From: Fibrobacter sp. UWR3
GTDB lineage: Bacteria > Fibrobacterota > Fibrobacteria > Fibrobacterales > Fibrobacteraceae
DNA: 64,000 nt
Reading direction: 5' to 3'
Assembly (NCBI RefSeq): GCF_900143055.1
Contig: NZ_FRCW01000003.1
Location: 248,001-312,000, forward strand
In this document: piece after piece, positions 24,182 to 43,224 of the stretch
Layout: every line of letters begins with the position of its first letter
How positions within the stretch are numbered: position 1 is the stretch's first letter
Notes under the pieces: model-generated
Told to the model about the DNA's origin: nothing
What the model saw: only the letters and a program-made list of their open reading frames with translations
The model's database searches: none
Position numbers and translations under genes: made by a program

Positions 24182-25279
24182 CTACAAACAATACAGCACT
24201 AGTTCATGCGTCAAGTGTGAGTGGCGGCGCAGATAGAACCTGTAACTATTGTCTAACGAATAAATATACTGAGGCAACGTGAACAAGTCTTCAAACTTAT
24301 GATAGGCAGAAATTGCCAACTTGGGATGATAATTTCTTATTGTATTTTGCGCACCCTTCAGTGCATCTAGTTCTGCGCCTTCAATATCCATCTTGATAAA
24401 TGTCGCCTTCTCACCATTAAGCACATTGTCAATGGAATCTACTTCAATTTGAATCGCGCCATCATCAACAATCTTGCTTGCATCTGCATTTCCACCAGCA
24501 AATGAGAGCGTCGTCTTTTTGCTAAATGCGCCCAGTTTTAAGCACACAATGTCGTTATTGCCAGCAAAGTTCTTTACTAGAGTCTGATAATTTTTCTCAT
24601 CCGGTTCAAAGGCAAAAACCTTTTGCGGTCTCGATTTGGCGAGTAATTCCTGTATGGTATCGCCCGTAAATGCACCACAATCAACGAAGATCTCATTTTC
24701 TAGTTTAACGACATCCTCTGCAAAATAATGATTGGGGTCATAAAGATTTTCAGCCCAACCATAATCACCAGAAACGCGTTGATTTAAATACGACAAAAAC
24801 GTTTCTCTTGACTTACCCTCCTCTAACCGGTCGTATAGCCATTGAAAATCTTCAGCATGTGCAACGACATCATTATACTTGTAATTTTGCATAGCAAAAT
24901 TTTCGTATTTCGCGCAATCGCAGGCATAAATTTTTTCAACACCAAATCGTACAGCAAGCTCCTTCCGCAAAGATCCATACGATTTCTTATCTAAATTAAA
25001 CCCCACCCACAACACAGGATTTGGAATTACTTTTACAAGTCCTTCAATTGGTTGAATATCTTTATCAAAGAACTTCATTCCTGGCTTGTAATAGGCAGAA
25101 TCAAAGCCTACCGCATTTACGTTAACGCCAAATTCCTGCAACATCCGATACTGCTGCTTCGCCCAGCAGCCAGCTCCATACAGAATGACATTTGAATCAC
25201 ATGCTTTTATCTCCTTGGCATAGTCTTCAAGGATTACATGGTCCATTTTTATATTACGCAGAAAACTTTGTTTTTCCAT
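24182..25279 (-). CDS. FkbM-family methyltransferase
   Basis: 365 residues from the ATG at 25279; a TTG at 25285 overlaps the previous stop. The C-terminal half is a FkbM SAM-dependent domain: IFVDCGAFTGDTIQEL (motif I), FAFEPDEKNYQTL, and FIKMDIEGAELDALKGAQNTI. The N-terminal half (about 30-140) contains VILYGAGCWAKQQYRML, a Rossmann-like segment seen in some fused sugar-modifying FkbM proteins. It probably O-methylates a glycan. It is the last gene of the six-gene minus-strand run starting with the recombinase. Confidence 0.88.
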   Translation of the reverse strand: MEKQSFLRNIKMDHVILEDYAKEIKACDSNVILYGAGCWAKQQYRMLQEFGVNVNAVGFDSAYYKPGMKFFDKDIQPIEGLVKVIPNPVLWVGFNLDKKSYGSLRKELAVRFGVEKIYACDCAKYENFAMQNYKYNDVVAHAEDFQWLYDRLEEGKSRETFLSYLNQRVSGDYGWAENLYDPNHYFAEDVVKLENEIFVDCGAFTGDTIQELLAKSRPQKVFAFEPDEKNYQTLVKNFAGNNDIVCLKLGAFSKKTTLSFAGGNADASKIVDDGAIQIEVDSIDNVLNGEKATFIKMDIEGAELDALKGAQNTIRNYHPKLAISAYHKFEDLFTLPQYIYSLDNSYRFYLRRHSHLTHELVLYCL

Positions 25280-25281
25280 CT

Positions 25282-26199
25282 TCAAACCTTTTCACGAATA
25301 ACATACTGTGGAGCCTGATTGATGCAAATGTAAATGCGGCCTATATACTCGCCAATCAGCCCAAGAATAAGCATAATCATACCGCCCAAAAAGAGCATCG
25401 TTGACATAATGGACGCATAGCCCATAAGCATCTCTGGCATCATTATTTTTTGAATAACGATATATATACCGGAACCAAGGCCAAGAACCGCACATAAAAC
25501 ACCAATATACGTTGCCAATCGAAGCGGCTTTACAGAAAAAGCGGTAAAGCCATTTATCCATAGCGAAAGCAAGGACATCAGCGTATAATTGGATTCACCC
25601 AAGATTCGCTTTCGGTGTTGGATCTCCACACTACCAATCTTTTTGGTGGTTCTGAAAATTAGACCGCCTATATAAGGGAATGAATTTTGGTACTGCGTAA
25701 TTTGATCAATTACAAATTTTCGTGCAATAAAAAAACTTGAAGCACGTAAATTTTGCGGTTGGCCAATAAGAGACTCTGCCATTTTGCGGTTTATAAAAGA
25801 GCCGAACCGCCGATACACCTTTTGCGTAGATTTAACGTGGCAAGCATATACCACATCAAAGCCTTCTTCTAGCTTATCGACAAGCTTAAAGCACTCATTC
25901 GCTGGTGTCTGACCATCGTCATCAAGACTAATGACGTAATCTCCGGTAGTTTGCCCATATCCAGCCATCAAAGCGCTATGCTGACCAAAATTTTTTGCTA
26001 GGCAAATGCCCTTGATATGGCAATCTTCGGCTGCAAGTTGCTTGATAACTTGCCACACATTATCTGGGCTACAGTCGTTCACCAAGACAATTTCGTAGTC
26101 TGTACCAGAGCGCGTCGCGATGGTATCGCGAATTTCTTGCACCACGGTACCGATTGTATTCTCACTTCGGTAGCAGGGAATTACAAAAGAGAGTTTCAT
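25282..26199 (-). CDS. Polyprenol-phosphate glycosyltransferase, ArnC/GtrB type
   Basis: 305 residues. GT2 domain: LSFVIPCYRSENTIG, IVLVNDCSPDNVW (nucleotide binding), LAKNFGQHSALMAGY, and ISLDDDGQTPANE (DDD metal site). Two C-terminal membrane helices (about 225-250 and 262-285) and the closing YIGRIYICINQAPQYVIREK are typical of ArnC/DPM1/GtrB enzymes that put a sugar onto undecaprenyl phosphate. In the same cluster are a sugar aminotransferase and an ArnE/F-like pair, so an undecaprenyl-phosphate-amino sugar is a reasonable product. Adjoins the oxidoreductase stop without a gap. Confidence 0.92.
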   Translation of the reverse strand: MKLSFVIPCYRSENTIGTVVQEIRDTIATRSGTDYEIVLVNDCSPDNVWQVIKQLAAEDCHIKGICLAKNFGQHSALMAGYGQTTGDYVISLDDDGQTPANECFKLVDKLEEGFDVVYACHVKSTQKVYRRFGSFINRKMAESLIGQPQNLRASSFFIARKFVIDQITQYQNSFPYIGGLIFRTTKKIGSVEIQHRKRILGESNYTLMSLLSLWINGFTAFSVKPLRLATYIGVLCAVLGLGSGIYIVIQKIMMPEMLMGYASIMSTMLFLGGMIMLILGLIGEYIGRIYICINQAPQYVIREKV

Positions 26200-27339
26200 T
26201 TAAAAATCCTGATGAACAGATTCCCACTTGTTGCTCTGAGCCGATTTTGCCGCGGCCTGCATCATGGCTAGACCTTCAAGCGAAGTGTGAATGCCGCACA
26301 CATATTGGCTAGTGAAACTTCCTGTAGCAAAATACTGTCCAAGACAATCAGCAATGTCCTTATAGTAGTTCGCAAAGGCCTCAATAAAGCCAGCCGGGTG
26401 TCCCGCCTTAAAGCGGTTGTACCGTTGCTGGTTTGCAATCTTCACATCGCCAGTGCGGTCACGCAGGCTTACGTTGCCCCGCAAATCGCAGGTCTTAAGA
26501 GTTTCAGGCTCCAGCTGGAACCATTCGGCACTGCCTTCGCTACCATACACACGAATGCGCAACCCGTTTCGGTTGCCAAGAGCAGTCTTGCTAAACCAGA
26601 TTTGTGCTCGAACATTATTCGTATACTGAACAAGAGCCCCCACATTATCAACAATCTGCGGGAAGAGTCCAAACGTAGTCTGGTCCGCCACAATATGTTC
26701 AGGGCGTTCGCCAGTCAAGAAGTAGATCATGTTGTGCAGATGGCTACCCAAGTCTAACGAAATCTTCGGAATCACCGTTTCTTTCAGTCGCCAGCTCTGC
26801 GGTTTAGGCGGTTCGTTATGCGCACCCAAGCGCATGAAACCTTCTTGAGGCATTTCAACTTGCACCTGTTGGATTTTACCAAGTTTACCGTCAGCAATGA
26901 TCTGCTTGAGTTCACGAATCATCGGATAACCGGTGTAGTTGTACGTTGTGCAGAAGAAGCCCTTAGTTTCCGCAACAACCTTCGCGATCGCCTCGCCTTC
27001 GGCAACGCTTGTGGCAAGAGACTTTTCGCAAACAACAGGGAAGCCCGCCTTTAATGCGTCAATAACAATATCCTTGTGCAGATCTGTCGGCGCAAGCACA
27101 ACCACAGCATCAAGTTTGCCTTTTTCGGCATTTAGCAAATCATGGTAGTTTGCATAGGTGCGTCCGTCTGCAACGCCCCAAGTGCGGGCCGTCTCACGAT
27201 TTGTTTCTGCATGGGTGCTAAATGCACCCGCCACCAGTTCAAAGTGTCCGTCCATCTGGCTCGCAGCCTTGTGGACTTCCCCAATAGCAGAATTAATTCC
27301 GCCGCCAATAAACGCGATTTGGTATGGTTCCTTATTCAT
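26200..27339 (-). CDS. Gfo/Idh/MocA-family sugar oxidoreductase
   Basis: 379 residues. The N-terminal Rossmann part has IAFIGGGINSAIGEVHKAA (NAD(P) site) and VVVLAPTDLHKDIVIDALKAGFPVVCEKSLATSVAEGEAI, where the EKS Lys is the usual catalytic residue. Later parts include SLDLGSHLHNMIYFLTGERPEH and RFKAGHPAGFIEAFANYYKDI, typical of the subgroup acting on nucleotide-activated sugars and inositols. It would oxidise a sugar precursor for the same glycan as its neighbours. The ATP-grasp gene ends 78 bp upstream. Confidence 0.92.
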   Translation of the reverse strand: MNKEPYQIAFIGGGINSAIGEVHKAASQMDGHFELVAGAFSTHAETNRETARTWGVADGRTYANYHDLLNAEKGKLDAVVVLAPTDLHKDIVIDALKAGFPVVCEKSLATSVAEGEAIAKVVAETKGFFCTTYNYTGYPMIRELKQIIADGKLGKIQQVQVEMPQEGFMRLGAHNEPPKPQSWRLKETVIPKISLDLGSHLHNMIYFLTGERPEHIVADQTTFGLFPQIVDNVGALVQYTNNVRAQIWFSKTALGNRNGLRIRVYGSEGSAEWFQLEPETLKTCDLRGNVSLRDRTGDVKIANQQRYNRFKAGHPAGFIEAFANYYKDIADCLGQYFATGSFTSQYVCGIHTSLEGLAMMQAAAKSAQSNKWESVHQDF

Positions 27340-27416
27340 ATTTCTGAATATAGGTTATTTTAATGTATCGGGGCAGTTTTGGCCCAGAAAAGCACTATTT
27401 TGAATTGGAATAAGGG

Positions 27417-28610
27417 CTATTCTACAATAATTCTAGCCAAATCGGTCATTCGCCCCGTTTTTTCCTGCATTTCGACAAGCGAATTGAACTTAAAGAAGAC
27501 TATTCCCGCCTTGTACAAGAGCTTGTCCGCGATAACATCACTCGGTTTGAACCACAAGAACTTCTCGACGATATTCGATTCAATTTCAGGAGCAAAAACA
27601 ACATCACGAACCACACCCTCGCAAGTCGGCATAACGCAATGGCGCAGCCAATATCCCTGCGTAGGGACATCTACTATATCAGAAATATCTTCTCCCGTTT
27701 CCGCCATCACGATAAACTTCGGATAGTCAACACCAGTAGCGTACTTCACAAACTTGATGTACAAATCTCCAGGCGGACGCCGGCAAATTTCAATGATAAC
27801 AGGCGTTCCGTCGAATTTCTCTATATACTGAATATGCAGAATGCCATCAACTAGACTCAATTCTTTCGCAATTCGTTCACTATAGTCACGAAGTTTTTTT
27901 AATCCAGCATCAGATGTGGTCGTTGGGGTATTCGCACCACTTACCATGTATTTGTTTAGAAAATACTGTTCGTTATCAGCAAAAGCAAACGCGACTTTGC
28001 CATTCACCAGCATAGCAGAGAATCCATGATTCGTCCCCTGAATAAATTCTTCTACAACAACATGATCCTCTCTAGTGCGACCCACAGCATCTCTGTAGGC
28101 TTCGCGTGCTTCGTCTGCATTCTCTGCTCGGTGAATTCCTTTGCCTCCCGTCAAGTCAACCGGCTTAACAATAATCGGGAACTTCAGCATCGCAATAGCA
28201 TCTTCAAATTCCAGATCATTTCGTACCACTTTCGCCTGTGGCGTAGGAATGTTCAAACGGGTTGCCAATGCACGGTACCTATCCTTATGGTGAATTTCAA
28301 GGGATGTTGCATAAGAATCATGTCCCTGCAAGCCCATTTTTTCACAAACATAAACCGTCGAAAGCAAGGCAAAATCATTGCATCCAGAACACACTGCCTG
28401 AACAGCTTCATTACGAGCGAGTTCAAGCATCGCATTTTTGTCGCTAAAATCAGCAAATACTGTCTTGTCTGCAAACGAATGTCCAAGTCCATCGCGATTA
28501 TTTCCTGTGGTAATCACATACCAACCAAGATCTTGCGCAGCTTTGATTAGCGGAATCTCAGCGTGAGACCCTCCCAACAAGAGAAGTTTTTTTCTATTAA
28601 TTTGACTCAT
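27417..28610 (-). CDS. ATP-grasp enzyme of a glycan cluster
   Basis: 397 residues from the ATG at 28610. The N-terminal pre-ATP-grasp domain starts KKLLLLGGSHAEIPLIKAAQDLGWYVITTG. The ATP-grasp core has FPIIVKPVDLTGGKGIHRAENADEAREAY, VVVEEFIQG and HIQYIEKFDGTPVIIEICRRPPGDLY (metal ligands E and R). It ligates a carboxylate to an amine or thiol, so here it could join an amino acid or other acid to an aminosugar. It lies between the WecE-like aminotransferase, which provides an amine, and the oxidoreductase. The exact substrate is unknown. Confidence 0.88.
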   Translation of the reverse strand: MSQINRKKLLLLGGSHAEIPLIKAAQDLGWYVITTGNNRDGLGHSFADKTVFADFSDKNAMLELARNEAVQAVCSGCNDFALLSTVYVCEKMGLQGHDSYATSLEIHHKDRYRALATRLNIPTPQAKVVRNDLEFEDAIAMLKFPIIVKPVDLTGGKGIHRAENADEAREAYRDAVGRTREDHVVVEEFIQGTNHGFSAMLVNGKVAFAFADNEQYFLNKYMVSGANTPTTTSDAGLKKLRDYSERIAKELSLVDGILHIQYIEKFDGTPVIIEICRRPPGDLYIKFVKYATGVDYPKFIVMAETGEDISDIVDVPTQGYWLRHCVMPTCEGVVRDVVFAPEIESNIVEKFLWFKPSDVIADKLLYKAGIVFFKFNSLVEMQEKTGRMTDLARIIVE

Positions 28611-28634
28611 TTTAATAAACAAGACTCACGCTAG

Positions 28635-29771
28635 TTAACCGCCAAAGAATTCAAACACCTTCCCGCAGATATACTCGATTTCTTCCGGTTTCAGCCCGTA
28701 GAACATGGGCAAACGAAGCAGACGGTTACTTTCATTAGTAGTGTACTTATCTTCGCCATGGAACCGGCCGAAGCGCATGCCTGCGGGCGACGAATGCAAC
28801 GGCACATAGTGGAATACCGCAAGGATTCCGTTGTAGGTCAAGTGCTTCAAGAGCGCCGTTCGCGTCGCTAGGTCTTCTACTTTCAAGTAAAACATGTGGG
28901 CGTTGTGCGTACAATGTTCCGGAATGTACGGCAACTCGACCAAGCCCTTTTCGGCAAGGAGCGCGAGCCTTTCACGATAGGCGTTCCAGCTCGCCATACG
29001 TGCATCATTGATGATGTCGGCACATTCCAGTTCAGCGTAAAGATAAGCCGCGTTCAATTCGCTCGGCAAATAGCTCGAGCCAAGTTCCACCCATGTGTAT
29101 TTATCGACTTCGCCGCGATGGAACTGGCAGCGGTTCGTGCCTTTCTCACGAATGATCTCCGCACGGTCGTTGTACTTAGGATCGTTAATGAGCAGCGCTC
29201 CGCCTTCGCCCATGCTGTAGTTCTTGGTTTCGTGATAGCTGTAACAACCAAAGTCACCCAACGAGCCTAGCGCGCGGCCTTTGTATGTAGCCATCATTCC
29301 CTGGGCGGCATCTTCAACTACGAACAAATTATGGCGTTTAGCAATTTCATTTATTGCATCCATCTCGCAGGCGACCCCCGCATAGTGGACCGGCACAATT
29401 GCCTTTGTCTTTTCGGTAATCGCGTCTTCGATAAGTTTTTCGTCTAGGTTCATCGTGTCGGGGCGGATATCCACGAACACGCACTTGGCACCCTGCGACA
29501 CAAACGCATCGGCCGTGCTCACGAACGTGAACGAGGGCATAATCACCTCATCACCGGGAGCGATATTGCAGAGACGGGCAGACATTTCCAACGCATGCGT
29601 GCAACTAGTAGTCAGGAGAGCCTTCGCCGTCCCAGTATGTTCCTCAAGCCACTTGTGGCACAGGAGGTTGAACGTTCCGTCACCACAGATGCGACCGCTC
29701 TCCACGGCCTGTTTCACATAATCGAATTCCATCCCTACAAAGGGAGGCTTGTTAAAAGGAATCTTTTGCAT
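28635..29771 (-). CDS. dTDP-4-amino-4,6-dideoxygalactose transaminase-like enzyme
   Basis: 378 residues from the ATG at 29771. DegT/DnrJ/EryC1 fold: LTTSCTHALEMSARL, VHYAGVACEMDAINEIAKRHNLFVVEDAAQGMMATYKG, and the PLP Lys in SYHETKNYSMGEGGALL. The Lys context (HETKN) and the motif ELGSSYLPSELNAAYLYAELE closely match WecE/RffA. It makes a 4-amino sugar nucleotide, as used in enterobacterial common antigen or O-antigens. Its start lies 20 bp after the recombinase gene stop, so both are probably on one transcript. Confidence 0.92.
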   Translation of the reverse strand: MQKIPFNKPPFVGMEFDYVKQAVESGRICGDGTFNLLCHKWLEEHTGTAKALLTTSCTHALEMSARLCNIAPGDEVIMPSFTFVSTADAFVSQGAKCVFVDIRPDTMNLDEKLIEDAITEKTKAIVPVHYAGVACEMDAINEIAKRHNLFVVEDAAQGMMATYKGRALGSLGDFGCYSYHETKNYSMGEGGALLINDPKYNDRAEIIREKGTNRCQFHRGEVDKYTWVELGSSYLPSELNAAYLYAELECADIINDARMASWNAYRERLALLAEKGLVELPYIPEHCTHNAHMFYLKVEDLATRTALLKHLTYNGILAVFHYVPLHSSPAGMRFGRFHGEDKYTTNESNRLLRLPMFYGLKPEEIEYICGKVFEFFGG

Positions 29772-29791
29772 GTTTGAAATATAAACAAATA

Positions 29792-30628
29792 TCACCCCAA
29801 TTTTCTAAACTTCTTCATCTCTTTATCCAAAAAAGTATCCACATACTTTGCGTAAATCAAGGTCGTTTCCAGATTCCTGTGCCCAAGCAGTTTACTTGTT
29901 GCGGGCAGAGGAATGCCAAGCGAAATGCAAGTAGTCGCAAATGTGTGCCGGGCCAAATGACAATGAATTCTCTTGCAGTAGCCAAGTTTCTTTGCTGCGC
30001 TGCGGAGAGTCCGGTTGAAATAAGAGTTTTCCACAACACGAAACACCGGGCCGCTTGTTAGTTTCTCTGGCAACAGCAGTCGAGCCTGCAGCGGAATGGG
30101 GATATACACGGGGTCGCCCGTCTTGTGCATTTGCTTACGGATTTTCCAGTCAAAGATTTCGTTTGCGTCTAACGAACGAAGATCGTTATAGCGCAACCCG
30201 GTAAAGCAGGCGAACAAGAACACCCGCATGGAATCAGATTCCGTTTTAGTAAGCACTTTTTCCCGATCTATATAATTGAGATATAGACTTTTTAATTCGC
30301 GCATCGTCAAGAAACCACGCCGTGTATAGGCCCGACCGATTTTCACCTTATCGAACGGATTACTTTCAACAAGGTTATCAATAGCAAGTTTATTCGTAAA
30401 TATCCGAAAAACAGAGAGTGCCTTATTTATAGTTGCGGGTTTATTTCCGAGCTGTTGCATATAACACTTGAACTCCTGGATAACATCCGGACTTAAATCC
30501 GAGCATTCAAGACCGGGTCTAAAGTCAGAGATTTTCTTCAAGTTCCAGTAATACGTCCGGACTGTATATGGCGATAGGTTGAGTTTGTCCTTTTCTAGAT
30601 ATTGTACTGCAGCGTCGCAAAAAAGCAT
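29792..30628 (-). CDS. Tyrosine site-specific recombinase next to the pilin cassettes
   Basis: 278 residues from the ATG at 30628 (AAAAGGAA upstream). The SAM-like core-binding domain spans about 1-95 (LNLSPYTVRTYYWNLKKISDF; NKALSVFRIFTNKL). The catalytic domain has Arg I in FTGLRYNDLRSL, the HxxR box in HCHLARHTFATTC, and the HxxxxxxxxY end GHRNLETTLIYAKYV, so all key residues (R, H, R, H, Y) are present. It looks like the short recombinases of Bacteroidota that invert promoters and gene segments rather than a phage integrase. It starts 77 bp from the first pilin core and reads away from it, as rci stands beside the R64 shufflon. No phage genes are near. Confidence 0.92.
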   Translation of the reverse strand: MLFCDAAVQYLEKDKLNLSPYTVRTYYWNLKKISDFRPGLECSDLSPDVIQEFKCYMQQLGNKPATINKALSVFRIFTNKLAIDNLVESNPFDKVKIGRAYTRRGFLTMRELKSLYLNYIDREKVLTKTESDSMRVFLFACFTGLRYNDLRSLDANEIFDWKIRKQMHKTGDPVYIPIPLQARLLLPEKLTSGPVFRVVENSYFNRTLRSAAKKLGYCKRIHCHLARHTFATTCISLGIPLPATSKLLGHRNLETTLIYAKYVDTFLDKEMKKFRKLG

Positions 30629-30704
30629 AGGTATTCCTTTTAAAAGAAATGATGTGAAAAGTTCGTAAATATAAACGAAGCAGAGTTTCCTCATCCGGAG
30701 AATT

Positions 30705-30734
30705 AGCAGGAACCTACGTGAAGTTGCAGGATGC
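30705..30734 (+). repeat. Pilin recombination core site 1 (plus orientation)
   Basis: Thirty bases identical to the pilin gene at 39218-39247 (opposite strand), containing the 16-bp core CTACGTGAAGTTGCAG shared by all four sites. The core codes TyrValLysLeuGln in the frame of cassette 1. Around the 7-bp centre TACGTGA the right half AGTTGCAG is invariant and the left half varies. Confidence 0.9.
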
Positions 30735-31059
30735 TTTCTATTCGGAAAAAAGCATGTATGGCGGATGGGGCGTTATCGGTTATGTAGCTCCGGGTGCGGG
30801 GAGCTCTAACTCCTATGCTTCCACCAACTTTACCTATGCCGGACATATTGACTATGCAACCGAAACCAATGCGACGGAAGCGGATGCGTGGACTGTTACT
30901 AGCAAGGCCGCGTTGAATGACTGCCCGGCATCTAGTGTATGGAAGATTGGCGTTGTCCAGAATGCTGCCGGTAACACGTCAAAGTACTCGCAGGCACTCC
31001 CGACTGATGCGGATTGCAAGTCCTTGACTCCGAACTTCGATCAGATTGGCAAATCGTAA
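30706..31059 (+). pseudogene. Silent pilin C-terminal cassette 1
   Basis: From the core Tyr the frame codes 114 residues to the stop at 31059: YVKLQDAFYSEKSMYGGWG, LNDCPASS, then DADCKSLTPNFDQIGKS. It aligns along its whole length with residues 48-161 of the pilin at 38893, including the two conserved cysteines. It lacks the 47-residue pilin head: no prepilin peptidase site or hydrophobic helix, no ATG, and no ribosome site. It would become a complete tail if joined at the core to the pilin head. It begins 77 bp from the recombinase start, reading the opposite way. Confidence 0.88.
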
Positions 31060-31212: not shown

Positions 31213-31548
31213 CTACTTACCAATAGCATTGAAATTAGGCGTCAATTCAGGGCACTCGGTTGTTGCGTTATAGCTATCCGTACCGGTAGTAATCGCAATA
31301 TGTGCAATATGCCAGTTCTGGCCACCTTCGCAATCGTTCAGCTTAGACCTATTTGTTGCCGACCAGGCATTTTCAAGGGCTTCGTTGCTTTCAGTGTCAT
31401 AAGTCAAGGCGCCAGCATAAACGAAGTTCGTTGTCTGAGAAGAAGCCTCGTCAGTCGCGTTTTCTCCCGGGCCGCTGTAGCCGATGAGTTTCCAACCACC
31501 ATACATGCTCTTTTCAGAGGCATAGGCAGCCTGCAACTTCACGTAGGT
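31213..31548 (-). pseudogene. Silent pilin C-terminal cassette 2
   Basis: From the core Tyr, 110 residues: YVKLQAAYASEKSMYGGWK, SKLNDCEGG, then TTECPELTPNFNAIGK. It aligns with the pilin tail and with cassettes 1 and 3, again without head or start codon. Its upstream flank runs directly into the end of the LtaS-like gene (stop at 31575), leaving 26 bp. Together with cassette 1 it makes an 830-bp segment with inward-reading core sites at both ends and a partial ORF from each, the exact format of a shufflon segment. Confidence 0.88.
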
Positions 31549-31549
31549 T
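31530..31549 (-). repeat. Pilin recombination core site 2 (minus orientation)
   Basis: Twenty bases identical to the pilin gene copy, including the full 16-bp core. Here the flanks form a partial inverted repeat, GCAACC and AGTTGC, around the 7-bp centre TACGTGA, as expected of a tyrosine-recombinase crossover site. Confidence 0.88.
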
Positions 31550-31574
31550 GCGACGTTTTCTCCAATTAGAAAAA

Positions 31575-32759
31575 TTAGTTTAGCACCACAAAAGGTACCC
31601 AACGACGATAGAATTTCCGCTGGAACTCCAAGGGCGACAGAATCGGTTCGTGATCCCCCTGCACCACAAATCGCACATTGGGGTGTTTTTTTGCCAAATC
31701 GGCCACTATTTGCATAGTTGCAAACAAGCGTTCGTAATAGAGTTTTTCTGTTTCTTCCGCATTATCACTAATAGGGAACCGAGTATCACGCGTAGTCCAA
31801 GCGATAAAATGCCTTACGTTATCCGTCGAGCCTAGCAGCGAGTCAATCTTTAAAGCCATTACGGCATCACTCGTTGTAGTATCAGTCCAAAACTCCTGTT
31901 GAAAACCGATACGTCTAATATAATGGTATCTCCATTGTATTGTGGAGTCACCACCAAAGAAGAACGAAGTCTGATAGCCCAACTTAGCAAAACGGTTGGG
32001 CGTATAAAGAGAATCTCTTCGCCCTTGCGAACGCCATGCCGAATCCAGTAGGTCTGTTCGTTCCGCCGTGCGGGTACGGCTGGACATTCTAAAGTGGATT
32101 CCGCGCTCCTTCACCAAACCGTTAAATACGGCTAATTCTTTTGCAAACATATTAGAATCCATCGGAATCCCCCAGGATTCAACAAGTATAACCACATTGC
32201 TACGGGTCGTATCTACATAATAGCGTGTAATAGATACAGAATCAGTTGCGTTATTTTTTTCTCTAAATTCATCTGTCAAATGATTGCGAGCCCATTCTGG
32301 GCTTGTCGTTGTTCTTGCCAGCCATTTTGCGACAGGAAACTCAAATATCGGCTGGCTTGGGAAAAACTGGTTCAGATAGCAATGTGACATTAGCGCAGCG
32401 AATAAAAAGAAGCTGACACCTCGTAAACTAAATGCTTTTATCGGTTTCAAAAGAACAATGGCAACAGAACACGTGATTAAAGGAATGACTATTCGCCAAC
32501 CGATGTTCCAGCCCTTATACGAAAGTATATTCTGCAAATCCGCTACAGCCACCAAAAACAAAACTGCAAATACGCAACCCATCAACGGTTTACGAGCAAA
32601 GGTCGTCCTGTCTCTTACTAGCATAAACAGGAGCAACAAGGCAAGAACGCAAAAATCGAACAAGCCCCGGACAATATCTTGTCCCTTTTCAAAGGTACTC
32701 AAAAACGGGAGAACCGTTATTAAGGCCGTAGCAATCAACGGATAAAGAATTCTTTTCAT
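31575..32759 (-). CDS. LtaS-like alkaline-phosphatase-superfamily membrane protein 1
   Basis: 394 residues. Four or five N-terminal helices (to about residue 130) precede an extracytoplasmic sulfatase/LtaS-like domain: SNVVILVESWGIPMDSNMF (first metal acidic residue), TRTAERT (possible Thr nucleophile), FFFGGDSTIQWRYHYIRRIGFQ, AWTTRDTRFP and VVQGDHEPILSP. It ends WVPFVVLN, a motif shared with the two homologues at 34464 and 37391. The superfamily transfers phosphoglycerol or phosphoethanolamine to sugars, lipids or pilins. Its start overlaps the stop of the GT-C-like gene by 4 bp. Transferase action is inferred from fold and context. Confidence 0.82.
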   Translation of the reverse strand: MKRILYPLIATALITVLPFLSTFEKGQDIVRGLFDFCVLALLLLFMLVRDRTTFARKPLMGCVFAVLFLVAVADLQNILSYKGWNIGWRIVIPLITCSVAIVLLKPIKAFSLRGVSFFLFAALMSHCYLNQFFPSQPIFEFPVAKWLARTTTSPEWARNHLTDEFREKNNATDSVSITRYYVDTTRSNVVILVESWGIPMDSNMFAKELAVFNGLVKERGIHFRMSSRTRTAERTDLLDSAWRSQGRRDSLYTPNRFAKLGYQTSFFFGGDSTIQWRYHYIRRIGFQQEFWTDTTTSDAVMALKIDSLLGSTDNVRHFIAWTTRDTRFPISDNAEETEKLYYERLFATMQIVADLAKKHPNVRFVVQGDHEPILSPLEFQRKFYRRWVPFVVLN

Positions 32760-34456
32760 TTCCCTGTCTCCGTTAAAGAATCATTGACCAGAGAATACTT
32801 ATAAACAACCATTCCGTTAAAATTATGGACCGTATCTACTTTGACTTTATTATAATAATGCTGTTCCAAGAAATTTCCCAATGTTGGTACATCTACAACA
32901 AAAACATTATCTAGTACAACATCTTTCATGGGGTTTGTGACGCCTCGCTTGTGGATAGCCTTTTCTACATCAGGGAAATAGGGTGTCCAAAAGCCAAAAG
33001 ATATCACCTGTTCCCAACTTCCCTGCGGTTCCGTCAAATATGGTGGAACCTTCTGCCTAGACATGCTCATGTACGAATTCATTTCCATGACGAATACTGT
33101 AGAATCCGGGACAGAATCCATAAAGGCAAAAAGTCCTTTGTAATCCACAGTGTCCGTATGTTCGTGATGAATGGGGACTATTTCACCCGATCTCACATGT
33201 CGAACGGTGGGGCCCGAAATTGCGTATGAACACAAAGTGATAATTGCAACAACGCAAACAAAACCTATAGAAATACTTTTATGTATTTGGAAACGTTCCT
33301 TTAAAAAGGGTATTGTTAAAAGGGCCGCATACAACCACAATCCAACTTCAACACGATAAACAAGACGTTGCAAGTACAATAAATACGCAATCATTGCACA
33401 TACTATGAGCAAGGACAGCCACGACCATAGACTTTGGGGTGATTTGAACGCGAACAAGGCGAAACATAATAAAAGCCATATGATAAAGACGGGGTATTTG
33501 GCAGAATTCGGCAAAGTCCCTAAAACGTTTGCCAATTGTGGACGAATGAACATCTCATTTTTATATTTTGCAATCAGGTTTGTTATAATTCGGAGGCTGT
33601 CGGGCGCAAAGACTTCGGTATCGTAGAAGAGCCAATGCGTTAACATAGGTAAGGCTTGCCCCGAATATGAAATTTCATCAAGATCTTCATCAACAGCCTG
33701 TTGGTTGTAAAAGAGGCCATCCCCCAAAAGGGCACGAGGCCCTTGGAATTCCATATATTTCTTATAATCGGGAGCTTGGTACAAGCTTTTGTTGAAAAAT
33801 TGGAACCCATAAGCTCCTACAAACACAATCGCCAAAGCAACAATTACAGTTAATTTAACATTCCATAGTTTTTTGACCAACAATAATAAAGCCGCTGCAA
33901 AAAACGGCATTCCCATCAGAAAAGCTTCCCAACGCATCCACGAACCCCACCATAACAATAGTACACCAAGGATTAAAAGCGTAATCCAATTTTTGGTAGG
34001 GACTTCAGTCGCTTTTTTTTCTAGCCCGTAAATAAAAGCAAGCATCCCTGTCGCAGAGAGCATCGCTGCACACTTTGTAAACTGAATGGCAAGATAAAAA
34101 TCACTTGCACATAAGGCGACAATAACGACCGTTAGAATCGCCCCCCATTTTTCACCAACCTTATTAACAACGATATAACCAACAATGGTTAATGAAACAA
34201 AGACCGAAGCCATTTCGCCAATGTAATACCAATTTATTTTGGGAAACAGATGATACAATGGCAGCAAGCAATAGCCATACAGCGCATTTACAAATGTCAG
34301 GTGAACATTGTAGCCTTCGCCATATATGCCAGAGAGAATTCCGGACATAAATATATCATCTATGGCATCAAAGCGTAAATCGCCAAAAGCAATGCATAGC
34401 CCTAAAAAATAAAGGTTGATGAGAAAAGAAATAAGAATAAATTTTTTGTTAATCAT
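32756..34456 (-). CDS. GT-C-like multi-pass membrane protein 1
   Basis: 566 residues from the ATG at 34456 (AGGG 5 bp before it); a GTG at 34471 would add five residues. About ten membrane helices. The first extracytoplasmic loop has RFDAIDDIFMSGILSGIYGEGYNVH, an acidic pair placed like the DD/ExD catalytic motif of GT-C glycosyltransferases. The homologue at 35219 has SLDDYFMSSVLTGAYGAEYDVH at the same place. The C-terminal about 170 residues are extracytoplasmic. It probably moves a sugar from a polyprenol carrier to a surface acceptor, but no family was confirmed. Confidence 0.75.
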   Translation of the reverse strand: MINKKFILISFLINLYFLGLCIAFGDLRFDAIDDIFMSGILSGIYGEGYNVHLTFVNALYGYCLLPLYHLFPKINWYYIGEMASVFVSLTIVGYIVVNKVGEKWGAILTVVIVALCASDFYLAIQFTKCAAMLSATGMLAFIYGLEKKATEVPTKNWITLLILGVLLLWWGSWMRWEAFLMGMPFFAAALLLLVKKLWNVKLTVIVALAIVFVGAYGFQFFNKSLYQAPDYKKYMEFQGPRALLGDGLFYNQQAVDEDLDEISYSGQALPMLTHWLFYDTEVFAPDSLRIITNLIAKYKNEMFIRPQLANVLGTLPNSAKYPVFIIWLLLCFALFAFKSPQSLWSWLSLLIVCAMIAYLLYLQRLVYRVEVGLWLYAALLTIPFLKERFQIHKSISIGFVCVVAIITLCSYAISGPTVRHVRSGEIVPIHHEHTDTVDYKGLFAFMDSVPDSTVFVMEMNSYMSMSRQKVPPYLTEPQGSWEQVISFGFWTPYFPDVEKAIHKRGVTNPMKDVVLDNVFVVDVPTLGNFLEQHYYNKVKVDTVHNFNGMVVYKYSLVNDSLTETGK

Positions 34457-34463
34457 AAAAGCC

Positions 34464-35222
34464 CTATTCACAATTATTTAGAATCGCAACAGGAACCCAA
34501 TGCGCCTTATAGGAACGCCTTGTTTCTGGCGTACCAAGAGTAGGCCGATGTGTTCCTTGGACAATAATAGACGCTTCAGGATGTTTTTGGGCAAAATCTG
34601 CGATTAGTTGGAGAGAATGGTGCAAACTATCCCTATCACCAGTCCGAGAACTCTGCGTAGTCCATGCAATTGTTTTTAGAGAATCAGTCAACAGTAATGA
34701 ATCGATCTTTACAAGCATCACGCTGTCTGCACACCTTTGACAGAACTGAGCGTAACTAAAACCAATTTCACGAATATACTCTCTCCGCTCGTATTCCGTT
34801 GAATCGCCGCCAAACAAATATAAGTTCGGATGCGGAGTTTCTCGGTACTCCGTTTTTTCAGCGTGCTTCGTTCTGTTCGCGAGTCGGCGATGAAGTGCGA
34901 ACGTATGTGGAATGTCCGCAAATACCGCGAATTCTTCTGCTAGAAGATTTTCCTGTATTGGGACCCCCCAGGCATCCACCAAGATTATCACTTTTGTTTG
35001 AGAAGAATCTCCTATTTGTAGGTGAAGCCGCCGTTTATCGAAAATTGTGTATTTGTCCTTATACATCTGGGTGAGGGAATCTTCGTGGACCGATGGTTGC
35101 AGGTGCCAGGGTTTTTCGAAAACGGTAGACATGCTGGTCTTTCCCGCAATATAAAAAAGAACGCTTGAAAATAAAGCAAGGAAAAGAAAGCAAGCTATGT
35201 TTATTTTTTGCCACTTTTTCAT
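34464..35222 (-). CDS. LtaS-like protein 2, short and missing a metal ligand
   Basis: 252 residues with a single N-terminal helix (about 8-28) instead of the usual four or five. The catalytic-type domain is present: TKVIILVDAWGVPIQENLL, TKHAEKT, LYLFGGDSTEYERREYIREIGFS, AWTTQSSR, and WVPVAILNN at the end. In the C-terminal metal motif it reads IIVQGTHRPTLG where the two homologues have GDH, so an aspartate that normally binds metal is replaced by threonine. It may therefore be inactive or have a changed role. Start and stop overlap its neighbours, so it is translated as part of the GT-C operon. Confidence 0.75.
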   Translation of the reverse strand: MKKWQKINIACFLFLALFSSVLFYIAGKTSMSTVFEKPWHLQPSVHEDSLTQMYKDKYTIFDKRRLHLQIGDSSQTKVIILVDAWGVPIQENLLAEEFAVFADIPHTFALHRRLANRTKHAEKTEYRETPHPNLYLFGGDSTEYERREYIREIGFSYAQFCQRCADSVMLVKIDSLLLTDSLKTIAWTTQSSRTGDRDSLHHSLQLIADFAQKHPEASIIVQGTHRPTLGTPETRRSYKAHWVPVAILNNCE

Positions 35223-36949
35223 TGTCTATCCCCAACAACGGAATATTTGATTACATATATTTCACCAAATGTCGCTATAGTGTCCGTGGACAAAGTCCTA
35301 CGATAATGTCTCTGATAAAAGTCAGGAAGTATCGGATAGGGGGAATCTTCAACAAGATAGACATTAGGATTAATAATATCTTTAATCGGGTTTGTTACGC
35401 CCCTCTTGGTAAGCTCTTTCTTCATTGCCGGCAAATGAATGTTCCAATACCCTAACGAAAAGATATTTTGCCAACTTCCTGGCTTTATGGACCAATACGG
35501 CTTATCTTTCAGCGTACCCAACTGCTTATATCGTTCAAAAGAAAGCAAAAAAACATCGTCAGGATGTTGCTGTACATAATCTACGAATTCCCTCCAATCC
35601 CGAGTCATTTCTCGAGTTTCAATGATATTCCATTTTGTTTTTAACGACTGCGACGAAATAGCCAAGGCGGAAAATAAAATGGCGAACAGGATGACTGCAA
35701 AAGGAAAAATATTTTTATGTTTCGCTACGAACTCATTTTGAAAAAGACCATCTTTTGTAAGGAACGGAATTGTGCCGACAATAGCATAAAGCCACACCCC
35801 GGTCTCTACATGATATACTAGTCGATTTACCAAAAGAAGGTAGCTCAAGGACGCAGCGACGATGCATAGCGATGCCCATGGGTATAAATTCGCTTTCTTG
35901 TCGCGGATTGCAATAAGCAAAATGCAGAATATCACCCAACACCATCCGTTTGTGCGAGTGAGTGCCGAAGAAATCGCCATAAGGAAAGCAAACGGCATTC
36001 TAGACCAATTCGGATAGTACAAATTCCGTTTTGCGACATCGATAATCTTCTGTAATTCGCCCTCACTTAGAATTTCTGTGTCATAGAACACCCAACTCTT
36101 GGCCAATTGATAATCAATTCCGGACATTTCTCGTTCTTCGAGTTCATCGAAAGTTGATTCTGAATCGTAATACGCCCCATCTCCAAAAAAAGCTCTCACA
36201 GGCTGGTATTCTGCATAATACTTGTAATCACCTTGGCTATATAGACTTTTATCATGATACTTTAAAGCAAATAACGCAACAAATGTTATAGATAAAATAA
36301 TTAGCGAGCCTTTATAAAGACCCTTCCGTTCAAATATATTAGAGGTGAGCAATATGCAAAGAAGCGGCAATCCTAATAAGAAACCTTCCCAGCGCATTAC
36401 GCTGCCGGCAATTAAGAATAGCCCACCTAGAATTATATGAAATTTTTTTTGACTGGCATCGCCGAGTGCAATAAGTAAGATGCCGGCGGCAGTATAGGCG
36501 GTCGCACATTGCGTGAAACTGAGCTGAAAGTAGAAGTCAGGGGTCAGCGCGGCAAGCAAGACCGCGGCCACAGGAATACCTATTTTCTTACCCAGATTTT
36601 GGATTAGTGCGTAGGTATAAACAGTAAAGGCGGCAAAAGTTCCTGCTAATTCGAAAATAAAATACCACCCAATCTTAGGGAATAGCAGATAGAACGGCTT
36701 TAGAAAAAAACCATAAGCCGAATTAACGAAGTACATGTGCACATCATATTCCGCGCCATACGCTCCAGTTAGGACGCTGGACATAAAGTAGTCATCAAGA
36801 GAACCATGTCGCACCACGCCAAAAGCGAGATACAAAAGAAAAAAGATGAAATTTAAGCCTAGGGCTGAGAATAAGGCTTTACCACTTCGCATAATTGAAA
36901 TATAATATTTTAAACAATCAGTTAAAAATATTTTTTCAAAACTAAACAT
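35219..36949 (-). CDS. GT-C-like multi-pass membrane protein 2
   Basis: 576 residues from 36949, or 557 from the ATG at 36892; neither has a clear ribosome site. It is homologous along its length to the protein at 32756 (acidic LDDYFMSSVL loop, FTQCATAYTAAGILLIALG, GGLFLIAGSVMRWEGFLLGLPLL). About ten helices and an extracytoplasmic C-terminal part (HPDDVFLLSFERYKQLG; KKELTKRGVTNPIKDIINPNVYLVED). The last segment corresponds to IHKRGVTNPMKDVVLDNVFVVD in its homologue. It is the first gene of the run 36.9 to 31.2 kb, beginning 36 bp from core site 3, so inversion there would change what lies upstream of its promoter. Confidence 0.75.
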   Translation of the reverse strand: MFSFEKIFLTDCLKYYISIMRSGKALFSALGLNFIFFLLYLAFGVVRHGSLDDYFMSSVLTGAYGAEYDVHMYFVNSAYGFFLKPFYLLFPKIGWYFIFELAGTFAAFTVYTYALIQNLGKKIGIPVAAVLLAALTPDFYFQLSFTQCATAYTAAGILLIALGDASQKKFHIILGGLFLIAGSVMRWEGFLLGLPLLCILLTSNIFERKGLYKGSLIILSITFVALFALKYHDKSLYSQGDYKYYAEYQPVRAFFGDGAYYDSESTFDELEEREMSGIDYQLAKSWVFYDTEILSEGELQKIIDVAKRNLYYPNWSRMPFAFLMAISSALTRTNGWCWVIFCILLIAIRDKKANLYPWASLCIVAASLSYLLLVNRLVYHVETGVWLYAIVGTIPFLTKDGLFQNEFVAKHKNIFPFAVILFAILFSALAISSQSLKTKWNIIETREMTRDWREFVDYVQQHPDDVFLLSFERYKQLGTLKDKPYWSIKPGSWQNIFSLGYWNIHLPAMKKELTKRGVTNPIKDIINPNVYLVEDSPYPILPDFYQRHYRRTLSTDTIATFGEIYVIKYSVVGDRQ

Positions 36950-36985
36950 TCGCCATACAGCTTTGAATCCGATAGTAGCATAATA

Positions 36986-37001
36986 CTACGTGAAGTTGCA
37001 G
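36986..37001 (+). repeat. Pilin recombination core site 3 (plus orientation)
   Basis: The bare 16-bp core CTACGTGAAGTTGCAG; identity with the other sites stops at both ends, so this copy sets the minimum. It is in frame with cassette 3. Confidence 0.88.
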
Positions 37002-37331
37002 CAGGCATACTTTGCCGAGAAAGTCAAGTATGGAACATGGACAATGATTGGCTATTCTGGACCGGGCTCCAATGCGGGGACTAGCTCCACCACAACAAAC
37101 TTTGTTTATGATGGAACGGGTCTGACCACAGAAACGAATGCCGCAGATCAAGTTGGCTGGAAAGCAAAGAATATTGCCAAGTTGAATGACTGTGCTGGTG
37201 ACACATTCCATTGGCAGGTAAAAACTGGTACTGTAACAAATGATAAGGATGCTTACGTTGTTGAAATGACAAATGATACTGATGGTGCCTGTGTTGCGTT
37301 GACCCCGAACTTCACGTCGATTGGCAACTAA
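36987..37331 (+). pseudogene. Silent pilin C-terminal cassette 3
   Basis: From the core Tyr, 114 residues: YVKLQQAYFAEKVKYGTWT, IAKLNDCAGDTFHW, then DGACVALTPNFTSIGN. It aligns with the pilin tail, with both cysteines. Two codons before the core there is an in-frame TAA, so it cannot be read from upstream as it stands. It faces the active pilin: inverting the 2.2-kb interval between core 3 and core 4 would put this tail directly behind the pilin head and move the present tail here. Confidence 0.88.
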
Positions 37332-37351
37332 TCTAATTTGTTAAACTAATT

Positions 37352-37391
37352 GAAATGGTTCTCATCGGCGAATGCTGGTGGGAACCATTTC
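37352..37391 (+). terminator. Hairpin after silent cassette 3
   Basis: Arms GAAATGGTTC and GAACCATTTC flank an 18-20 base loop, 21 bp after the cassette stop. The T-run is weak. It reaches the last base of the convergent LtaS-like gene 3. Confidence 0.6.
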
Positions 37392-38830
37392 TAATTTCTT
37401 GAGTGCCCATTCAACACGATCATTGGAACCCATTTAAAGTAGAATGACTGTACAAAGCCGGCGTCCATTAAGGCACCCATAGGACGATGGTCTCCGCGAA
37501 TAATGAATGTGTATTCAGAATGACGATGTGCTAGCCATGTAATCCATCTTGCGGTATTCTCCTGCAGTGTAAAGAACGTGCAATCAATATCCGACAAATC
37601 AAGAGCCGTGCACTTATCTGATTTCTCATGGATTGTTGACAATTCATAAGGCGGGTGAGAATCTAGTGTTGTCCAATATATGAATTTTGGCGTAGTTTCA
37701 CCAAGCAAGGAATCTAAAAAGATGACCAAGGATGAATCGCATATACCAACAAATCCGTAATTACATGTAGACAACCTTTTGTCTGTTAGCTCATCACGAA
37801 AAAGAAGATGCTCGAAACCAAATTTCGCATAATTAGCACGTCTGTCGTAAAATCCGCCAGAAAAACCATGCACGTACCACGTCTGCAATCCATTCTCTTT
37901 AAACATCGCAGGAATTGGTGTTCCGTTAGCTATTCCATTTATGGAACCAAAATCTTCCCATTCCGCGCCCTGTGTATGATTCGAATGACGGTGATACAAA
38001 CCCATAAAACTTGGATCGGCATCCGCATAAGCGGAAAATAGCGTTTTGTCATAAGCAACAGATTTGTTTACTCCGAAACTTTCGACAAGAATCATCACAG
38101 TCGGTCTTGAGTAATCTGCAATGACAGATGCTGCGCTATCCCATTGCGGAAATACCTGTTTTATATCCTCTTGTAAATAGGAACTCTTTCCGACGATATT
38201 TTGTTTAAAGTATTGCCAAAGCCATGTTTTTGCAGGGTATTCCATTAGGCTTTGACGTTGTTGCAAGCAAGAGAAACCATAGCCTAAACAAATGGAAATG
38301 GTAGCAAGGGCAATCGCCACCGGATATGACAATTCAAGTCTTCTGCCGCCACAAAGATTTTTTCTTGCAAAGGCGTATTGAATCGCCGTAATCAACAATG
38401 GAATAACGACAAATAGAGGAGGTCCCCACCAAAAGAACCTAGCCAAGCCCCATACATCGGAATTCTTTAACGCAAAAGTCGAATAAAAGAAATTCTCACA
38501 ATCCACCACAAAGAATAAAAGAGAAAAAGCGGTAAATGCCGGTAGGACAAACTTTTTTTGCTTAGGAATTGATATGATAACCCAAAACGTCAACAGGTAA
38601 AGGCCGGCTGTTGCAAAGCCTTCCGCAGAATTTGCATAAAAAGAATACCCACAGATAAAGGCTGTGATTATGACTTTCCATACGATATTTCTTGATGGCA
38701 GAGCAAATGCCAACAATAGAAAGAATTCTTCTGCTGAGAAAAAACCGTGTAGCAGGGGCGAATCAAAGAATTCGCACGCTAGGTACGGTGCAAATGCGGC
38801 TACAATTGGGACAAAGAACAATAAAAACAT
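37391..38830 (-). CDS. LtaS-like alkaline-phosphatase-superfamily membrane protein 3
   Basis: 479 residues with five or six N-terminal helices (to about 190). The extracytoplasmic domain has TVMILVESFGVNKSVAY, HTQGAEWED (candidate Thr), VHGFSGGFYDRRANYAKFGFEHLLF, IYWTTLDSHPPYEL, FIIRGDHRPMGA and WVPMIVLNG. It is the best-conserved of the three homologues, with an intact GDH. It starts 62 bp after the pilin stop, behind the pilin terminator, with no good ribosome site, so expression probably depends on read-through from the pilin promoter. It sits inside the core 3-core 4 interval and would turn round with it. Confidence 0.83.
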   Translation of the reverse strand: MFLLFFVPIVAAFAPYLACEFFDSPLLHGFFSAEEFFLLLAFALPSRNIVWKVIITAFICGYSFYANSAEGFATAGLYLLTFWVIISIPKQKKFVLPAFTAFSLLFFVVDCENFFYSTFALKNSDVWGLARFFWWGPPLFVVIPLLITAIQYAFARKNLCGGRRLELSYPVAIALATISICLGYGFSCLQQRQSLMEYPAKTWLWQYFKQNIVGKSSYLQEDIKQVFPQWDSAASVIADYSRPTVMILVESFGVNKSVAYDKTLFSAYADADPSFMGLYHRHSNHTQGAEWEDFGSINGIANGTPIPAMFKENGLQTWYVHGFSGGFYDRRANYAKFGFEHLLFRDELTDKRLSTCNYGFVGICDSSLVIFLDSLLGETTPKFIYWTTLDSHPPYELSTIHEKSDKCTALDLSDIDCTFFTLQENTARWITWLAHRHSEYTFIIRGDHRPMGALMDAGFVQSFYFKWVPMIVLNGHSRN

Positions 38831-38840
38831 ATATAATCAC

Positions 38841-38870
38841 AAAAAAGGAACCCCGCGAAACAGGGTTCCT
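38841..38870 (-). terminator. Terminator between pilin and LtaS-like gene 3
   Basis: On the minus strand the arms AGGAACCC and GGGTTCCT are separated by 9 bases and followed by TTTTTT. It lies 23 bp after the pilin stop and 11 bp before the next start. Confidence 0.85.
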
Positions 38871-38892
38871 TAAGATGTTTATTCGGCTTTGA

Positions 38893-39378
38893 TTACTTAC
38901 CAATCTGGTCGAAGGTCGGGGTAAGAGCCTTGCATTCGGTGTCATCTACAGCAGACGTGTATGAACTTACCGTTGTCGTACTACCGATCGCGCCCAAGGC
39001 GATGGTCCAGTGATAATCACTATCACAGTCATTTAACTTAGCAATATTCTTAGCCTTCCAACCTATAGCATTACCAGTGGAAGTTGCTTCGTCTGTGTCA
39101 ACTTCGGCTGCGTTATATTCAAAGTTGTTTGATTCGCTAGATGCGCCCTTAGATCCACCCGGTGCCGCATAACCAATCATATCCCAGCCGCCAAACTTGT
39201 TCTTTTCGGAGAAGTATGCATCCTGCAACTTCACGTAGGTTCCTGCTGCAGGGCCGACTTCAGAGGCCTTGGACTTGGCGATCATGCCGAACAGCTTGGG
39301 AACTGCGACGGCGGCGAGGATGCCCATGATCACAATCACGACCATCAATTCAATGAGGGTAAAACCTTGTTTCTTCAT
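38893..39378 (-). CDS. Type IV pilin major subunit, the complete (expressed) copy
   Basis: 161 residues with AAGGAG 6 bp before the ATG. A short leader MKKQG is cut before the Phe by prepilin peptidase, giving FTLIELMVVIVIMGILAAVAVP with the conserved Glu5. Residues 1-47 form the constant head. At Tyr48 the shared core begins, and the 114-residue tail (YVKLQDAYFSEKNKFGGWD, KLNDCDSDYHW, DTECKALTPTFDQIGK) aligns with the three silent cassettes. The Cys pair probably closes a C-terminal loop. It is the only copy with a leader, so it should be the one assembled by the PilT/PilC machinery coded near 59-61 kb. Confidence 0.95.
   Translation of the reverse strand: MKKQGFTLIELMVVIVIMGILAAVAVPKLFGMIAKSKASEVGPAAGTYVKLQDAYFSEKNKFGGWDMIGYAAPGGSKGASSESNNFEYNAAEVDTDEATSTGNAIGWKAKNIAKLNDCDSDYHWTIALGAIGSTTTVSSYTSAVDDTECKALTPTFDQIGK
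39218..39247 (-). repeat. Pilin recombination core site 4, inside the expressed pilin gene
   Basis: Minus-strand copy of the core, thirty bases identical to site 1. It codes residues AlaGlyThrTyrValLysLeuGlnAsp. Recombination here leaves the reading frame intact with each cassette. Confidence 0.9.
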
Positions 39379-41493: not shown

Positions 41494-41510
41494 TTATTTT
41501 TCCGTTTTAT

Positions 41511-41618
41511 GGCGGGAACGCCCCCGCGAAGGCGGACAGGGACACCCCCATCTATACTATAAAACGATTTCGCGGGGAAAATGAGCCAAACAGGGCGTGA
41601 AAATTTTGTTTACACAAA
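41511..41618 (-). repeat. 108-bp upstream repeat, copy A (before AlbA_2 gene)
   Basis: Starts GCGGGAACGCCCCCGC and ends TTTTGTTTACACAAA. It shares with copies B and C the block TCTATACTATAAAACG, then TTTCGCGG and GTGAAAATTTTGTTTACA. Read toward the gene it carries a possible -10 TATAGT. It lies 18 bp upstream of the AlbA_2 start. The remaining 41619-41757 contains no gene that I can support. Confidence 0.8.
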
Positions 41619-42886: not shown

Positions 42887-42986
42887 ATAGAACTCCTGGA
42901 TATAATTACAATATAATTATATTTCACACAGAAAGCAACATTTTCTTGTGGGAAAACTTTACGCTCCATTTTATAGTCCTTTTTCT

Positions 42987-43094
42987 GCGGGAACGCCCCC
43001 GCAAAGGCGAATAGAGACACCCCTATCTATACTATAAAACGATTTCGCGGCGAAAATGAGCCAAACGGGGCGTGAAAATTTTGTTTACACAAAA
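42987..43094 (-). repeat. 108-bp upstream repeat, copy B (before brnTA)
   Basis: Nearly the same as copy A throughout (GCGGGAACGCCCCCGC, TCTATACTATAAAACG, TTTCGCGG, GTGAAAATTTTGTTTACA). It runs straight into the tandem inverted-repeat array at 43094. Confidence 0.8.
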
Positions 43095-43224
43095 AGATCC
43101 CCGCCTTCGCGGGGATGACGAGAAAGGGTTACAAAGATCCCCGCCTTCGCGGGGATGACGAGAAAGGGTTACAAAGATCCCCGCCTTCGCGGGGATGACG
43201 CTTTCAGCGCGGGGATGACGAGAA
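43094..43224. repeat. Tandem inverted-repeat array, 40-bp period
   Basis: Three units begin AAAGATCCCCGCCTTCGCGG and continue with GGATGACGAGAAAGGGTTAC; the first two are identical 40-mers. A degenerate fourth (GCGCGGGGATGACGAGAAG) follows. Each holds the hairpin ATCCCCGC-CTTC-GCGGGGAT. A 76-codon minus-strand ORF here is only a by-product of the repeats. Confidence 0.85.

Follow-up and report, generated by a model that had tools for sequence, protein, structure and literature searches.

Exchange of pilin tails by DNA inversion is known from Moraxella (Piv) and from the R64 shufflon (Rci), in which one constant pilin N-terminus can receive different C-terminal segments through inversion; R64 Rci is a tyrosine recombinase and Moraxella Piv is not. 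To our knowledge, the R64 shufflon exchanges only the tails of a minor pilin and includes no modification enzymes. In Neisseria, PptA and PptB belong to the alkaline-phosphatase (AlkP) superfamily and are phospho-transferases found alongside pilin glycosylation (PglL). The Neisseria pilin bears a glycan plus phosphocholine or phosphoglycerol, and pptA varies via a G-tract in its own gene rather than by inversion (PMC3656113). The cassettes of Pseudomonas aeruginosa (TfpO, TfpW, TfpX/Y/Z) carry an accessory gene behind the pilin gene with a Rho-independent terminator between them, which has been proposed to attenuate the accessory gene; glycosyltransferases are among these accessories (PMC11841053). 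Neither inversion nor an AlkP-superfamily transferase has been described for the Pseudomonas cassettes.

Here, we analyzed a 64,000-nucleotide stretch of DNA (the window) from Fibrobacter sp. UWR3, a fibre-digesting gut bacterium whose genome comprises 20 contigs and 3.5 Mb. The window includes a pilin locus that shares alternative tails, and probably their exchange by inversion, with Moraxella and R64, AlkP-superfamily proteins together with glycosyltransferases with Neisseria, and the pilin-accessory layout with Pseudomonas; unlike in Pseudomonas, other enzyme families are involved, and the tails appear to be exchanged by recombination. What is new is the occurrence of Pseudomonas-type pilin-accessory cassettes inside an apparently invertible pilin locus that is presumably run by a tyrosine recombinase. 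We lean toward the view that this is an invertible Fibrobacter pilin locus with pilin-accessory modification genes inside the invertible DNA. If true, pilin-accessory cassettes would extend to a phylum from which, in the literature we searched, they have not been reported; that search also yielded no report of pilin modification in Fibrobacter and nothing relevant on Fibrobacter pilin inversion. Fibrobacter pili are believed to aid adhesion to cellulose (PMC4668043), and a one-step switch of pilus sequence, and possibly of its coating, would affect attachment and phage binding.

Layout of the locus and its crossover cores

The preliminary description placed five enzyme genes between pilin tails, and indeed AlkP1, GTC1, AlkP2, GTC2, and AlkP3 are all intact and lie side by side on the minus strand, flanked by one full pilin and three silent tails. 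The expressed pilin PilA (38893..39378, minus strand; PF07963, 1.4e-9) consists of an N-methylation motif and tail T0, and has 11 related places within its own genome. Leftward from PilA-T0 lie a Rho-independent terminator (38845..38871, minus strand; a -18 kcal/mol hairpin plus T-run), AlkP1 (37391..38830), silent tail T1 (36990..37331, plus strand), the genes GTC1 (35219..36949), AlkP2 (34464..35222), GTC2 (32756..34471), and AlkP3 (31575..32759), silent tails T2 (31213..31550, minus strand) and T3 (30718..31059, plus strand), and a tyrosine recombinase (29792..30694, minus strand; PF00589, 6.7e-15), the presumed invertase. GTC1 through AlkP3 are joined by start/stop overlaps of a few bases, as in an operon, and AlkP1 stands apart. 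Next to the recombinase are sugar/polysaccharide genes (24182..29795, minus strand) that encode an FkbM methyltransferase, GT2, GFO/IDH, ATP-grasp, and DegT.

The 15-bp core TACGTGAAGTTGCAG opens each of the four tails: site 0 at the start of T0 (39223..39237, minus), site 1 at T1 (36987..37001, plus), head to head with the GTC1 start, site 2 at T2 (31531..31545, minus), and site 3 at T3 (30715..30729, plus). Thus, the window combines inverted sites at tail starts with a recombinase. Elsewhere in the 3.5-Mb genome, the exact core occurs once more (G000:C2:381835-381849), away from any pilin found and likely by chance; the reversed sequence, used as a control, has zero copies in this genome. 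Across loci, the core pattern is CTACGTG-N4-TGCAG, and the N4 spacer is nearly always alike inside one locus and different from locus to locus, as expected if the sites of one locus recombine together. Close relatives of the recombinase adjoin pilin tails in other genomes. However, about 20 genomes (L125-L143, L101) have close homologues with no core site anywhere near, so this adjacency is not universal, and such homologues may work in trans or recognize other sites.

Evidence for inversion comes from a related genome, G060, in which a 7,908-bp contig (C7) has the core at both of its ends, as an inverted pair. These ends share exactly 95 bp with the contig that encodes the pilin N-terminus and with a far-flank contig, an overlap that recurs at other contig joins of this assembly. 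In G060, the identity of the two tails extends only 41 bp past the core, and no second full copy of the 95-mer from the expressed tail was found. A repeat of 41 bp is not expected to interrupt an assembly graph with a word size of 95 bp; judging from this assembly structure, both junction forms, and so both orientations, were probably present in the reads. Contig C7 carries GTC1-AlkP2, which puts a GT-C/AlkP pair in DNA that appears to flip and supports, in this relative, the earlier proposal that the inverting segment holds an LtaS-like/GT-C pair. For the window's own strain, we infer inversion.

In relatives, the DNA that separates silent tails (at loci L058, L081, L086, L090, L092) often also includes toxin-antitoxin-like genes (HipA-like genes and recurring small two-gene units), which were identified by eye save for one HipA_C match. 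Perhaps these units guard against deletion between direct sites.

Predicted glycosyltransferases and AlkP-superfamily proteins

The two GT-C-like proteins are homologs, as first described, with 34% identity between GTC1 and GTC2 in a 50-row alignment. The GTC1 model (pLDDT 90) has its best PDB matches to ALG9 (6.9e-5), AftA and ArnT (1e-3), and PglB (3.8e-3), all of which are GT-C enzymes, at modest TM-scores (~0.34-0.45). Two acidic residues in the first outer loop of GTC1, D52 and D53, are invariant in 50 proteins and form a GT-C acidic motif. Neither GTC1 nor GTC2 matches a described Pfam or NCBIfam family, a search of PDB sequences with the GTC profile found nothing, and across 168 genomes of the phylum, the GTC family was not found outside the window's own taxonomic family.

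Among the AlkP proteins, AlkP1 (479 aa, ~6 TM segments) and AlkP3 are LtaS-like and can be assigned to the AlkP/sulfatase fold, AlkP1 by PF00884 (3.9e-11) and AlkP3 by the PDB fold matches of its model (pLDDT 94), which include PbgA, LtaP, LtaS, EptC, GacH, and MCR-1 at low identity (12-17%). A profile of AlkP1 and the related family F6 (PF00884) matches LtaS structures at 1e-13. AlkP2 is a short, single-TM protein. Pfam and NCBIfam gave no meaningful match to AlkP2 or AlkP3, and the AlkP profile gave only a weak match to LtaP among PDB sequences (4.8e-4).

FGGDST, WTT, G(T/D)H, and WVPxxxLN had been listed as shared by all three AlkP proteins. The list holds for AlkP2 and AlkP3 but was slightly overstated for AlkP1, which has WTT, GDH, and WVPxxxLN with HGFSGGF where FGGDST is expected. 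All three contain T-x-x-A-E, in which the Thr and Glu are invariant across 68 aligned proteins; a proposed check of this Thr against the LtaS nucleophile was run, and the residue agrees in all three proteins. We describe the LtaS-type active site as an E/T/D/H set, of which we take LtaS D475 to be the fourth member. The LtaS metal and nucleophile residues include E255, T300, and H476 (PMC4973235). By motif and alignment matching, all four residues are conserved in 32/32 AlkP3 members (E194/T229/D369/H370 in the window) and in 13/13 AlkP1 members, with the exception of H (12/13). In AlkP2, E is replaced by D or N and D by T or A in 23/23 members, while T and H are kept; in the window, these changes are E to D and GDH to GTH. 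With its metal set altered in all members, AlkP2 probably does not work as a usual LtaS-type enzyme. PbgA likewise has no full metal set (PMC4973235). In another genome, broken AlkP1 pieces lie convergent with a pilin (L148, G043:C31, 2677-3188), as if the gene were degenerating in some genomes.

Linkage to pilins and the candidate target

We searched 111 genomes of the family with GTC1, AlkP3, and AlkP1 as queries, disregarding pilins, and then read the neighbourhoods. In 23/25 cases, a pilin or tail lies no more than 7 kb from GTC1, and the remaining two GTC1 genes are in pilin-led operons, so that GTC1-AlkP2 is pilin-linked in all 25. AlkP1 is pilin-linked in 18/21. By the same 7-kb measure, 28/49 GTC2 are pilin-linked, and 14/49 have only Wzm/Wzt nearby and no pilin. 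Pairing is strict, GTC1 always with AlkP2 and GTC2 always with AlkP3. Altogether, there is good support for the gene content, for the folds, and for the link to pilins.

The locus adjoins sugar genes and relatives of GTC2-AlkP3 occur in exporter clusters, which makes a polysaccharide a possible target. The GT-C/AlkP pairs would then decorate O-antigen or another exported polysaccharide, captured because the pilin locus edges a polysaccharide cluster. The GTC2-AlkP3 relatives occur with Wzm/Wzt and a DegT/ATP-grasp/GFO-IDH triad in many genomes, and this triad also flanks the window locus. There is also a precedent in Streptococcus, where GacH, one of the AlkP3 fold matches, takes glycerol phosphate from phosphatidylglycerol and places it on a side-chain sugar that GacI-L have attached (PMC12282279); this pathway acts on cell-wall polysaccharide and is encoded by a fixed gene cluster. 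However, GTC1 was within 8 kb of Wzm/Wzt in 0/25 cases (one AlkP2 is within 8 kb of Wzt). The GTC tree separates the GTC1 and GTC2 lineages, and within GTC2, pilin- and exporter-linked members are set apart with only two changes of context. On this tree, the window GTC2 groups with a G021 pair directly behind PilA, a placement that is unsure given the long branches, and the nearest relative of the window AlkP3 likewise belongs to a pilin-operon pair, in G021 (57%). Direct pilin-terminator-enzyme junctions, described below, recur as well. We therefore regard a polysaccharide target as rather unlikely. Three of the ABC-exporter polysaccharide clusters have a divergent pilin-like gene by or near GTC2 (L089:9662-10246, L099:7484-8086, L112:2890-3639).

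An enzyme gene lies directly behind a pilin or tail on the same strand at nine loci for AlkP1, seven for GTC1, seven for F6, two for F11, and four for GTC2. The F6 and F11 counts are biased, because the set of loci was assembled from matches to the GTC, AlkP, and recombinase families. A Rho-independent terminator (hairpin plus T-run) is present at 27/29 junctions, and the exceptions are two divergent pilins before GTC2. The Pseudomonas-like accessory layout, a gene behind the pilin with a terminator between, is thus found at T0-AlkP1 and at 26 junctions in relatives; the window's GTC1-AlkP3 operon is not directly behind any tail. Families F6 and F11 (~700 aa, many TM segments, no Pfam match) recur behind pilins (L066, L069, L072, L100) and look like further decoration enzymes. 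Among pilins without these families, five of the seven examined have a glycosyltransferase directly downstream, and the others have GH9 or HipA.

It could be argued that the genes are passengers in a neutral landing zone between crossover sites, functionally unrelated to the pilin, given that toxin-antitoxin-like genes also occupy such intervals in relatives and that near-identical tails have different enzymes. Yet in many species, genes of the AlkP and GT-C classes are found immediately behind pilins, including pilin loci that have no silent tails, and their orientation and terminators are conserved, which makes passenger status improbable.

Proposed joint exchange of tails and enzymes

In the pilin-modification model that we favor, the tyrosine recombinase would act on the short inverted CTACGTG-N4-TGCAG cores at tail starts, and recombination would swap the tail that is joined to the promoter and the pilin N-terminus. 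AlkP1 starts ~10 nt past the T-run of the T0 terminator, which makes read-through the likely source of its transcript; expression of AlkP1 would then be confined to the orientation in which T0 faces the promoter. The four-gene operon GTC1-AlkP2-GTC2-AlkP3 would most likely glycosylate and phospho-modify the pilin in the periplasm. Here, the GT-C enzymes would use a polyprenyl-phosphate carrier as the source of the sugar (presumed substrate and donor), AlkP1 and AlkP3 would move phosphoglycerol or phosphoethanolamine from a phospholipid (presumed donor), and AlkP2 would be a helper or an altered-chemistry partner of GTC1. The lost metal ligand of AlkP2 and the placement of this operon, which does not directly follow any tail, weigh against the model.

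Together, the linkage, the cassette layout, and the apparently flipping segment of G060 with its GTC1-AlkP2 make it plausible that the pilin tail and its enzyme context switch together. The stronger proposal, that a single recombinase-driven inversion swaps the pilin tail together with its glycosylating and phospho-modifying enzymes, is tentative, and we put it at somewhat below an even chance.

The preliminary description went further and suggested one matching enzyme per tail, but in the window only the expressed T0 has a co-directional enzyme (AlkP1), while T1, T2, and T3 have none. The altered metal ligands of AlkP2 and the presence of the GTC2-AlkP3 lineage in pilin-free polysaccharide-export clusters also speak against it. 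Some silent tails in relatives do have their own enzyme (L082, L093, L121, L055; an F6 fragment in L060), and the suggested check of co-occurrence, with tails labelled by the next enzyme, gave a weak association that is confounded by relatedness (permutation p ~0.01). However, similar tails are followed by different enzymes in L053/L082 (79% identical) and in L087 versus L057 and L098 (83-84%), which argues against strict matching, and we reject it: that inversion swaps matched pairs of a tail and its specific decoration enzyme is highly improbable. As far as the sequences tell, the enzymes are interchangeable between tails.

Elsewhere, the window has a dispersed 114-bp repeat (41505-41618 and 42980-43093, 91% identical) and, at 43093-43212, 40-bp units with GATCCCCGCCTTCGCGGGGATGAC.
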